From: Paracoccus salipaludis
Lineage (GTDB): Bacteria; Pseudomonadota; Alphaproteobacteria; Rhodobacterales; Rhodobacteraceae
Assembly: GCF_002287065.1 (NCBI RefSeq)
Contig: NZ_NSJZ01000012.1
Location: 1-64,000, forward strand
DNA length: 64,000 nt
Direction: 5' to 3'
Part shown: one piece after another, positions 13,067 through 15,818 of the stretch
How positions within the stretch are numbered: position 1 is the stretch's first letter
Layout: each line of letters opens with the position of its first letter
Notes under the pieces: generated by a model
The model's database searches: none
The model's input: the letters and a program-made list of their open reading frames with translations, nothing else
Told to the model about the DNA's origin: nothing
Position numbers and translations under genes: made by a program

Positions 13067-13508
13067 GCGGGTCGCCCTGCGGCCGCGCGGCCCGGCGCTT
13101 GGCATGGCCGAGGCGGAAGGGGGCTGCCACTGCGGCGCGGTGCGGTTCCGCACGAGGCTGGCGCAGGGCCTGGCCACCGCCGGCCGCTGCACATGTTCCT
13201 ATTGCCGGATGAAGGGCAGCATCTCGGTGACGGTCGCCGAGGGGGGCTTCCAGCTGCTTTCAGGCGAGGACAGCCTTGGCACCTACCATTTCGGCACGGG
13301 CGTCGCGGCCCATCATTTCTGCCGGGTCTGCGGCATCAACACCCATCACCACCGCAGCTCGGTTCCCGGCCAGGTCGCCGTCAGCGCCGCCTGCCTGGAC
13401 GGCGTGAGCCCCTTCGACTTTCTAGAACTGCCGGTCTGGGAAGGCGAGCGCGAGACGCCGCCGGGACAGGACGTGCTGGCGGGCGTGCTGCGCTACAGCC
13501 CGGCGTAA
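13059..13508 (+). CDS. GFA family protein (glutathione-dependent formaldehyde-activating enzyme-like)
   Basis: A 149-residue CENP-V/GFA fold protein. The zinc-binding cysteines are visible: GGCHCGAV (Cys23, Cys25), RCTCSYC (Cys44, Cys46, Cys49) and FCRVCG (Cys88, Cys91). Members were named after an S-hydroxymethylglutathione synthase activity, but most, like this one, have no proven substrate. The GTG at 13059 overlaps cbpM by 8 nt; ATG at 13104 is an equally possible start, leaving the conserved domain intact. Its 3' end overlaps the convergent rlmJ gene by 16 nt. Confidence 0.85.
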   Translation: MTERVALRPRGPALGMAEAEGGCHCGAVRFRTRLAQGLATAGRCTCSYCRMKGSISVTVAEGGFQLLSGEDSLGTYHFGTGVAAHHFCRVCGINTHHHRSSVPGQVAVSAACLDGVSPFDFLELPVWEGERETPPGQDVLAGVLRYSPA

Positions 13509-14269
13509 AGGGCGGCGAGGCGCTCGGCTTCGGCGTCCAGTCCGTAGGGCGGGTTGATGACGAACATGCCCGACCCGACCATGCCGTGACCGGCACGCGC
13601 CGGCGGAAAGCGGACCTCGGACAGCAGCGCCTGCGGGTGATCGGCGGCCAGCGCGCCTGCCATGGCCCGGTGCCGTTCGTCGGCAAGGATCGGGTACCAC
13701 AGCGCGATCACGCCGACGTTCCACTTGCGCGCCATGCGGGCGATCCAGCCGGGAATGCGGTTGTAGTCGGCCTTGACCTCATAGCTGGGGTCGATCAGCA
13801 GCAGTCCACGCCGCGGCAGGGGCGGGATCAGGGCGTTCGCCATGGCGAAGCCGTCCTGCTGGTGAAGCCGCGCGAAATCGGCGACCTCGGACAGGGCGGC
13901 GTGTTCGGCCGGGTGCAGTTCGGCCAGATGGGCCGAGTCGCCGGGCCGCAGGAAATGTGAGGCGATCAAGGGAGAGCCGGGATAGGCCTGCGGGCCGAAG
14001 CGGCCCCGGACCGCCGACAGTGCATCCGACAGGGGATGATCCGCCGGCAGCCAGCCTTGCGCCAGCGCGCGCGTGATCCCGGCCTCTGCTTCCTGCGTCC
14101 GTTGCGCTTCCTCGGACCCGAGGTCGTAGAGGCCGCGCCCGGCATGGGTCTCGATATAGGTCAGCGGCTTCGGCTTGGCCGTCAGGTGGGACAGCGCCGT
14201 GGCGAGCAGGGCGTGCTTGTGCACGTCCGCCAGGTTTCCCGCGTGATACGCGTGCTGATAGGACAACAT
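13493..14269 (-). CDS. rlmJ: 23S rRNA (adenine-2030-N6)-methyltransferase RlmJ
   Basis: A 258-residue SAM-dependent methyltransferase. The N-terminus MLSYQHAYHAGNLADVHKH is highly characteristic of RlmJ. ETHAGRGLYDL (40-50) is the SAM site, and the catalytic motif is DPSY (160-163), close to the canonical DPPY. It methylates A2030 of 23S rRNA before 50S assembly. The upstream region on the same strand carries three CCUCCUCCC-loop hairpins (14314-14422) and a promoter at 14431-14459, so the gene may be read from a long structured leader. It overlaps the convergent GFA gene by 16 nt. Confidence 0.92.
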   Translation of the reverse strand: MLSYQHAYHAGNLADVHKHALLATALSHLTAKPKPLTYIETHAGRGLYDLGSEEAQRTQEAEAGITRALAQGWLPADHPLSDALSAVRGRFGPQAYPGSPLIASHFLRPGDSAHLAELHPAEHAALSEVADFARLHQQDGFAMANALIPPLPRRGLLLIDPSYEVKADYNRIPGWIARMARKWNVGVIALWYPILADERHRAMAGALAADHPQALLSEVRFPPARAGHGMVGSGMFVINPPYGLDAEAERLAALYAGL

Positions 14270-14313
14270 GACCTGTCCCTAGTCGGCGCATCCGGGAATG
14301 GGAAGAGGAGGAA

Positions 14314-14348
14314 GCGGCGACCCCGGGGAGGAGGAGAGGGGTCGCCGC
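14314..14348 (-). ncRNA. Anti-Shine-Dalgarno hairpin C (CcsR/cuckoo-like)
   Basis: Perfect 11-bp stem GCGGCGACCCC / GGGGTCGCCGC (14314-14324 and 14338-14348). On the minus strand the 13-nt loop reads TCTCCTCCTCCCC and contains the exact CCUCCUCCC motif of the Rhodobacter CcsR (cuckoo) small RNAs. It is the last of three hairpins before rlmJ and is followed by a pyrimidine tract, so it may also act as a weak terminator. Confidence 0.65.
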
Positions 14349-14354
14349 CAACAA

Positions 14355-14384
14355 CGCGCCCAGGGAGGAGGAGGGGCGGCGCTG
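14355..14384 (-). ncRNA. Anti-Shine-Dalgarno hairpin B (CcsR/cuckoo-like)
   Basis: The stem is weaker than in its neighbours: GCGCC / GGCGC (14356-14360 and 14378-14382), with possible extension across a one-base bulge. The minus-strand loop contains CCUCCUCCC. It lies 6 nt from hairpin C and 4 nt from hairpin A, so all three could form one RNA of about 110 nt. Confidence 0.55.
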
Positions 14385-14388
14385 CATC

Positions 14389-14422
14389 GGATCGCTACCG
14401 GGGAGGAGGTCGGCTGCGATCC
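14389..14422 (-). ncRNA. Anti-Shine-Dalgarno hairpin A (CcsR/cuckoo-like)
   Basis: The outer stem GGATCGC / GCGATCC (14389-14395 and 14416-14422) is perfect; after a 2+2 internal loop an inner CCG/CGG stem follows. The minus-strand loop is ACCUCCUCCC, a precise copy of the CcsR loop. A promoter-like pair (14431-14459) predicts a transcript start within 1-3 nt of this hairpin. Confidence 0.65.
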
Positions 14423-14430
14423 ATGAACAC

Positions 14431-14459
14431 AAGATGGCCCGAATGCTGCGCTTGCACAA
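14431..14459 (-). promoter_or_regulatory. Candidate promoter for the anti-SD hairpin RNA / rlmJ leader
   Basis: On the minus strand TTGTGC (14459-14454) and CATCTT (14436-14431) are separated by exactly 17 nt. The expected start, about 7 nt downstream, falls at 14423-14425, directly before hairpin A. The -10 is weak for a housekeeping sigma factor, leaving room for a stress sigma factor of the RpoH type. The remaining plus-strand stretch to mrp (14460-14717) shows no further recognisable element. Confidence 0.5.
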
Positions 14460-14717
14460 CGGCTGTTTCGGACGATCTGCTATGCTCTGGATGCATGGAA
14501 AATTGCGCCCGTTGGTCACAAAACCGCCATCTTTTGACGGATTCTGGCACTTGTTGCATCCTGAACACGCAGAAGATGTATCACCTATGCGTGTGACGCA
14601 ACGTTTTCCGGGAACCATGCGTCACGATGCTGCGCAGCAGCATGGTTTTGCGCGCGTCTGGTTGCCGGATGCCGGCGGCCCTATATCGCTGCCAACGACA
14701 GTTGAAGGATCGGGCGC

Positions 14718-15818
14718 ATGGCAGTGAATCGCGACAGGGTGATGCAGGAACTCGAACAGGTGGCGGTTCCCGGCGGCAGCAATCTGGTCAGGGCCGATCT
14801 GATCCGGGCGCTGACAATGACCGAAGATGAGGTGAGCTTCGTCATCGAGGCCTCGGACGCGGCGCTTGCCCGTGCGCTGGAAACCGCCAGCGCCGAGGCG
14901 GAATCGCGGCTGCGTGCCCTGGGCTTTTCCCGCGTGCGCATTGTCACGACCGCTCCTGCGGGCAAGCAGGCCGGCGTGGCCGCGCGCTCGGGGCCGGCCG
15001 CGGGGGCGGGTGCGCCGCCCAGCCTGACGATCGGACGGCATCCGACGCCGCAGGCGGGCCCCCAAGCGATTCCGGGTGTGAAGCACATCATTGCCATCGG
15101 CTCGGGCAAGGGGGGCGTCGGCAAGTCCACCCTGACCACCAACCTCGCCGTTGCACTGGCGCGCAAGGGGCGGCGAATCGGGGTGCTGGATGCCGACATC
15201 TACGGCCCCAGCCAGCCCCGGATGCTCGGCGTGGCCGACCGCCCCCGCAGCGAGAACGACCGCATCATTCCCGTCCGCGCCCATGGCGTCACCATGATGT
15301 CGCTGGGCCTGATGATGAAGGAAGGCGAGGCGGTCGTCTGGCGCGGCCCGATGCTGATGGGCGCGCTGCAGCAGATGCTGAACCAGGTCGAATGGGGCGA
15401 ACTGGACGCCCTTCTGGTGGACCTGCCGCCCGGCACCGGCGACGTGCAGCTGAGCCTGTGCCAGAAGGCGCCGGTCACGGGCGCCATCATCGTGTCCACG
15501 CCCCAGGACGTGGCCCTGATCGACGCGCGCCGCGCCATCGACATGTTCGGCAAGCTCAGGACCCCGGTGCTGGGGCTGGTCGAGAACATGTCCTCCTATG
15601 TCTGCCCCAATTGCGGGCACGAGGCGCACCTGTTCGGTCATGGCGGCGTCGCGGCCGAGGCGGCCGAGCGCGGCCTGCCCTTCCTGGGCGAGGTGCCGCT
15701 GGACCTGTCGGTGCGCCTTGCGGGCGATTCGGGGCAGCCGGTCGCGCTGGGCGAGGGGCCGGTGGCCGGGGCCTATGCCCGGCTGGCCGAGCGGCTGATC
15801 CAGGGCGGCATGGCCTGA
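14718..15818 (+). CDS. mrp: Mrp/NBP35-family Fe-S cluster carrier ATPase (ApbC)
   Basis: A 366-residue P-loop ATPase that binds and transfers [4Fe-4S] clusters to target enzymes. An N-terminal DUF59/MIP18-like domain (about 1-80) and an Ala/Gly linker precede the deviant Walker A GSGKGGVGKST (128-138). The bridging cluster ligands are Cys296 and Cys299 in CPNCG. It is monocistronic, with 235 nt between the rlmJ-side RNA promoter and its own ATG. Length and motif order are normal for the family. Confidence 0.93.
   Translation: MAVNRDRVMQELEQVAVPGGSNLVRADLIRALTMTEDEVSFVIEASDAALARALETASAEAESRLRALGFSRVRIVTTAPAGKQAGVAARSGPAAGAGAPPSLTIGRHPTPQAGPQAIPGVKHIIAIGSGKGGVGKSTLTTNLAVALARKGRRIGVLDADIYGPSQPRMLGVADRPRSENDRIIPVRAHGVTMMSLGLMMKEGEAVVWRGPMLMGALQQMLNQVEWGELDALLVDLPPGTGDVQLSLCQKAPVTGAIIVSTPQDVALIDARRAIDMFGKLRTPVLGLVENMSSYVCPNCGHEAHLFGHGGVAAEAAERGLPFLGEVPLDLSVRLAGDSGQPVALGEGPVAGAYARLAERLIQGGMA

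Follow-up and report, generated by a model that had tools for sequence, protein, structure and literature searches.

A candidate multi-loop anti-Shine-Dalgarno sRNA at a CIN1-type locus that lacks its DUF1127 gene in Paracoccus salipaludis

What does an array of anti-Shine-Dalgarno (anti-SD) hairpins do at a locus from which the accompanying protein gene is gone? The pairing of DUF1127 proteins with CcsR-like RNAs has been named the CIN1 locus, and the operon is described as having an RpoHI/RpoHII promoter, RNase E processing and a terminator (available portions of PMC10253847). In published accounts, CcsR1-4 and ccaF1 are co-transcribed from that promoter, the transcript is cut by RNase E, and flhR mRNA is targeted (PMC10253847, PMC8307010, PMC8625941, PMC7866481). 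The window, by which we mean the whole 64,000-nt stretch of P. salipaludis DNA analyzed here, contains three tandem hairpins at 14423-14314 on the minus strand, between rlmJ and mrp, and the loop of each is CCUCCUCCC. For these hairpins the initial annotation offered two functions: a multi-loop sRNA that mimics the 3' end of 16S rRNA, or a 5' leader by which rlmJ senses free SD or anti-SD capacity. The features needed to weigh them are as follows.

14718..15818 (+): mrp, an apbC-type Fe-S carrier ATPase (PF10609, E 2.9e-98), the divergent neighbor marking the locus
14482..14496 (-): palindrome ATGC-N7-GCAT upstream of the array promoter, a possible regulator site, also present in other genera
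14454..14459 (-): -35 element TTGTGC of the array promoter; its TTG fits positions -36..-34 of RpoHI/RpoHII promoters as given in excerpts of PMC3441632
14431..14436 (-): -10 element CATCTT, 17 nt from the -35 element, with A at -12 and T at -9
14423 (-): predicted transcription start (+1) by RpoH numbering from TTG, the first base of hairpin A (distance 0)
14388..14423 (-): hairpin A, loop motif CCUCCUCCC at 14409-14401; both-side changes at 4 of 11 pairs
14351..14385 (-): hairpin B, loop motif CCUCCUCCC at 14371-14363; both-side changes at 2 of 11 pairs
14314..14348 (-): hairpin C, loop motif CCUCCUCCC at 14334-14326; both-side changes at 1 of 11 pairs; weak T tail
14277..14304 (-): promoter-like signal of rlmJ, TT at -35/-34 (14304-14303) and CTAGGG at -13..-8 (14282-14277), conserved over 123 loci
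13493..14269 (-): rlmJ, 23S rRNA methyltransferase (PF04378, E 5.5e-47), a neighbor judged to lie outside the RNA unit

Direct reading of the minus strand gave CCTCCTCCC at all three loop positions (14409-14401, 14371-14363 and 14334-14326). Folded separately, A, B and C each gave a single hairpin whose motif stays unpaired (-16.0, -15.7 and -24.0 kcal/mol; z of -4.0, -2.9 and -4.3, respectively). Folded together, 14423-14314 formed exactly three hairpins with all loops free, at -57.9 kcal/mol (z -5.1), which none of 200 shuffles equaled. A longer fold (14430-14270) retained A and C; the hairpin B stretch paired there with downstream sequence, and B was not formed. Across the window, CCTCCTCC was found nine times against 3.7 expected (as high in none of 100 shuffles), and four of the nine occurrences (two overlapping) are at the array. 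Between the array promoter and mrp there is also a terminator-like hairpin with a T tail, at 14524-14540 on the minus strand. An mrp-side element, TTGCGTCA-N3-5-GCAT (window copy TTGCGTCACACGCAT, 14587-14601, minus strand), was dropped, its pattern occurring in only 9 of 99 loci.

The array proved to be a constant feature of the genus. RlmJ was found in 123 of 125 Paracoccus genomes, one match amounting to 26 codons at a contig end, and 123 regions upstream of rlmJ were examined (30 + 93). Leaving out L103, L131 and L152, in which the contig ends inside the region, gave 120 evaluable loci. An array lies upstream of rlmJ in all 120, with 2 to 20 hairpins each, counts that are lower bounds because the finder misses bulged hairpins (it found two of the three in the window). 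The nearest named record to the window is P. chinensis, with 92% RlmJ identity, and all three loop motifs are kept in six three-hairpin relatives (L004, L005, L006, L014, L063 and L066). Individual loci vary: L145 has four hairpins with one exact loop only, and in L139 (genome G075) a local rearrangement places the DUF1127 gene and the array about 2 kb from rlmJ. The largest array, with 20 hairpins by the finder, belongs to L119 (genome G121). Locus L029 carries a Hva1_TUDOR (PF11160) gene between array and rlmJ, and L019 looks alike by eye.

The stems changed across these loci and continued to pair. In the 12 loci with an A-B-C block, 90.8% of cells pair, compared with 87.9% in column shuffles and 35-50% with slid partners. 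Changes on both sides with pairing kept were seen at 7 of 33 pairs (shuffle mean 3.7; 8 of 500 shuffles as high), further pair types numbered 16 (27 of 500 as high), and the covariation score was 0.124 (0 of 500 as high); the single counts are rough because the MAFFT alignment puts hairpin B out of place in three or more rows and hairpin C in one. An arm-swap control covered 1234 loop motifs from 121 loci. A stem score of 20 was reached by 852 motifs with their true flanks, by 191 with swapped 3' arms and by 69 with shuffled 3' arms. In the stems of 994 hairpins, G-U exceeded A-C (594 vs 340), as expected for an RNA of the array strand; the same comparison in the DUF1127-less loci alone (27 vs 22) says little. 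L139 is left out of both the arm-swap and the strand counts, as are motifs lying in roughly the first 20 nt of a region. Chance pyrimidine repeats are ruled out by the conservation and the arm-swap control. Overall, the three anti-SD hairpins of the initial annotation are borne out by the sequence reading, by single and joint folds and by the arrays at all 120 evaluable rlmJ loci, and the conservation of loops and stems in relatives that it had named as a check was indeed observed, with pairing kept through changes.

The initial annotation had further placed a promoter, TTGTGC-17-CATCTT, pointing into hairpin A; the sequence is as it described, and a looser pattern of this type matched 112 of 123 Paracoccus loci. 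TTGTGC itself is present in 111 of the 112, a count owed partly to selection because the loose promoter pattern demands TTG[TC]GC; three of the 11 loci with no match are the truncated ones. With spacings of 15-20 permitted, CATNTT stood at a spacing of 17 in 106 of the 112 promoter-matched loci. A-12 and T-9 are the bases stressed for RpoH promoters in the available part of PMC3441632, and from this fit in sequence (TTG at -36..-34, A-12, T-9) we infer that the array is transcribed by an RpoH-type holoenzyme. Upstream of the -35 element, at 15-45 nt, the palindrome [AT]TGC-N7-GCA[TA] was found in 96 of the 112 promoter-aligned loci; the flank of the window copy deviates from the genus consensus.

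We extended the comparison to other genera through the 30 top-scoring CcsR1 loci, which are not a random sample. The array promoter was present in 24 of these best-scoring loci, mrp was divergent in 27, and a DUF1127 gene was present in 23. Loci L174, L177, L178 and L184 have mrp and lack DUF1127. In L178 and in L171, for which no mrp was found, 84 and 91 nt, respectively, separate the promoter from the first loop, and no DUF1127 gene was found. Three other-genus genomes (G373, G241 and G235) have CcsR1 matches on several contigs and perhaps more than one array.

Within Paracoccus, 105 of 120 loci carry a DUF1127 gene upstream of the array. The other 15 have none, among them the window locus, where an HMM built from 103 locus proteins detected no such gene between mrp and rlmJ. 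Because of the 105 loci with the gene, we read the window gene as lost; its presence in 23 of the 30 other-genus loci likewise makes losses of the absences in general. The possibility that a one-sequence search had overlooked DUF1127 genes was discarded after the HMM recheck, which moved only L087 from absent to present. A quick single-gene RlmJ tree (122 rows, no bootstrap; L155, with 26 codons of rlmJ, left out) gathered 14 of the 15 DUF1127-less loci in a single 16-row clade (SH-aLRT 98) whose two remaining rows have the gene; L011 (genome G021) stands apart. The fewest changes on this tree were four, with starred branches forcing at least two, and the absence therefore probably reflects more than one loss. 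The initial annotation, which had seen no DUF1127 gene here, was thus right about the window locus, and the absence there looks like a subclade loss.

A Pfam search of 61 genomes, covering 12 of the 15 DUF1127-less loci, gave one DUF1127 match in each of those 12 genomes, located either on a different contig from rlmJ or hundreds of kilobases away from it. The one remaining in the window genome scored 34.6 bits on the locus HMM, compared with 69-132 for the 103 building proteins, and so looks like another paralog; it could act in trans. A search for an array near it found one lone TCCTCC only, and CTCCTCCC was found in none of the 30 top-scoring DUF1127 loci, taken with 1.5 kb flanks. The DUF1127-less loci also differ in size, with a median of 5 hairpins (range 2-8, n=15) against 10 (range 4-20, n=105) elsewhere, as given by a finder that undercounts. 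Across these 15 loci, the predicted +1 lies at most 1 nt from the first hairpin in seven, 6 nt in two and 38-65 nt in six. Of the last group, L065, L066 and L073 have a visible first loop that the finder missed, and none was seen in L011, L080 and L097. Judged by these predicted starts, DUF1127-less loci do not generally have the start fused directly to a hairpin.

We next consider the family to which the array belongs. At the gathering level, tRNA was the sole Rfam match in the window. In E-value mode, RF02344 (ar14) covered all three hairpins (50.3 bits, E 2.9e-8) and RF02791 (CcsR1) covered B and C (46.8 bits, E 2.3e-10), both below their gathering cut-offs of 58.8 and 65.3. In the covariance-model check called for by the initial annotation, both families matched over the hairpins, and both scores fell short of the curated cut-off. 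Scores below the cut-off are common in this group, CcsR1 matching 205 of 248 family genomes at E 0.001 and exceeding its cut-off in 10 of 248, and ar14 passing its own in 3 of 20 chosen Paracoccus loci. Because sub-cut-off matches also occur in unrelated control genomes (ar14 in 3 of 14 at E 1, CcsR1 in 1 of 14 at E 0.001), the assignment rests on synteny and promoter as well. No second strong copy was found in the genome, the next matches having E 0.8 (ar14) and E 3.4 (our own R1 model). Cuckoo RNAs are defined by two to four adjacent hairpins; the window has three, each with a CCUCCUCCC loop, the loops being constant and the stems variable with pairing retained. Its genomic place and promoter are those of CIN1 loci in other genera, and a DUF1127 gene upstream of the RNAs is missing. 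We thus file the window array, by synteny and structure, as a probable variant of the cuckoo/ar14/CcsR family, in keeping with the kinship first proposed.

Taken together, the sequence comparisons establish a conserved promoter, three conserved anti-SD hairpins, the absence of DUF1127 and a conserved promoter-like signal before rlmJ. We consider it likely that this is a CIN1 (cuckoo/CcsR) locus that has lost its ccaF1-type DUF1127 gene and encodes a directly transcribed multi-loop anti-SD sRNA whose loops pair with SD sequences; of the two functions offered initially, this is the one that fits. An RpoH-type holoenzyme would produce an RNA of about 110 nt, from hairpin A to just past hairpin C. 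With the anti-SD core of 16S rRNA reproduced in its three CCUCCUCCC loops, this RNA would base-pair with GGAGG-type SD sequences, so that under stress several mRNAs would be translated less or become less stable. The 3' end of 16S rRNA we take to have the pattern GGATCACCTCCTTTCT; the genome contains one match to it, and CCTCCT is common to that match and the loops. Because the start touches hairpin A, this RNA would need no excision from a DUF1127 mRNA, unlike Rhodobacter CcsR, which involves RNase E with CcaF1. The RNA likely ends with hairpin C. Within the window's group (seven loci), the 8 nt that follow the last listed hairpin contain 2-4 T, compared with 5-7 T in 88 of the 115 remaining loci, and 3' end formation after C is thus the weakest step; a terminator scan listed none after C, its loop limit of 8 being too small for this hairpin.

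Alternatively, the array might act as a sponge: as a decoy of the 16S 3' end, it would capture Hfq or a DUF1127 protein and leave mRNAs alone. A hairpin number of 2 to 20 per locus would suit such a dosage role, and CcaF1 is described as RNA-binding and as altering CcsR levels in the accessible part of PMC10253847. We nonetheless think this unlikely, given that the array persists where the DUF1127 gene is gone, that the loop is an anti-SD sequence, and that CcsR1-4 are reported to target flhR mRNA (excerpts of PMC8307010).

The sRNA must also be weighed against the 5' leader, in which the hairpins would sense free SD or anti-SD capacity and control rlmJ. The array does end close to this gene, as first noted: we measured 44 nt from hairpin C to the rlmJ ATG (45 nt in the initial annotation), and the distance does not exceed 60 nt in 73 of 120 loci. 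Furthermore, hairpin C has a weak T tail in the window's clade, the downstream pairing of B in the longer fold is readable as a switch, and a sigma-70 consensus scan of 14200-14800 listed no site before rlmJ, whose hexamers are poor. Against this, a recurrent pattern precedes the rlmJ ATG across 123 loci: position -35 is T in 79% and position -34 in 98%, and 86 loci have TA at -12; a signal similar by eye occurs in some other genera. As this signal keeps a fixed distance to the ATG, we read it as a promoter that would start transcription at or beside the ATG, making the rlmJ mRNA leaderless or nearly so. In addition, more than 150 nt separates the end of the array from rlmJ in 34 of 120 loci, and no RlmJ match was found beside 29 of the 30 other-genus arrays within the fetched flanks of at most 1.5 kb. 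In view of the promoter-like signal and the varying distance, we set the leader aside as quite improbable; rlmJ looks independent of the array. It is less probable still that the stretch is a decaying relic, an array shrinking and no longer working after the loss of DUF1127: the lower hairpin numbers of DUF1127-less loci (undercounted by the finder), the deviating palindrome flank and the weak T tail would suit decay, but none of the three loop motifs is missing from the six three-hairpin relatives, stem pairing is kept and the promoter is intact.

For the directly transcribed sRNA, a broader interpretation can be put forward tentatively and with rather low confidence. The anti-SD array, and not the DUF1127 protein, may be the selected core of CIN1. 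The protein would have been dropped more than once, and in some lineages the stress promoter would have become fused with the first hairpin, yielding a processing-free mimic of the 16S tail in which loop number (2-20) sets a global brake on SD-led translation. CcsR RNAs and CcaF1 have been described as one operon, and Paracoccus offers natural cases with the array and without the locus protein gene. The two roles are therefore separable by species comparison, and with 2-20 hairpins at one orthologous site, it can be tested directly whether loop number sets the dosage. Among the papers searched, none joins DUF1127 with Paracoccus and none joins CcsR, RpoHII and Paracoccus; all six searched terms were absent from the main text of PMC5107571, on P. 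denitrificans sRNAs.

The CIN1 locus is already known, and what appears to differ here is the missing DUF1127 gene together with a predicted start at the first hairpin. The 5'-UTR-derived sRNAs of Rhodobacter, such as UpsM, are alike in being sRNAs upstream of a same-strand gene; they differ in that rlmJ seems to own a separate start, and the window array is not judged its leader. The cuckoo family of Rhizobiales (ar14/SmelA075, RF02344) likewise has adjacent hairpins with CCUCCUCCC in each loop and variable stems, and SmelA075, like the window array, has three hairpins (PMC3927594); the bacterial order differs, and the window score of 50.3 bits lies below the ar14 cut-off. The closest counterpart is CcsR1-4 in the CIN1 locus of R. 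sphaeroides (RF02791), where an RpoH-type promoter is likewise followed by hairpins with CCUCCUCCC loops, a likeness drawn through published descriptions and the loci of other genera, with which Paracoccus CIN1 shares mrp and the array promoter. In R. sphaeroides the locus includes the DUF1127 gene ccaF1 and the CcsR RNAs are cut from a 3' UTR, whereas the window locus lacks this gene, has three hairpins compared with two in RS0680a (PMC3927594), and its RNA is predicted to start directly at hairpin A.
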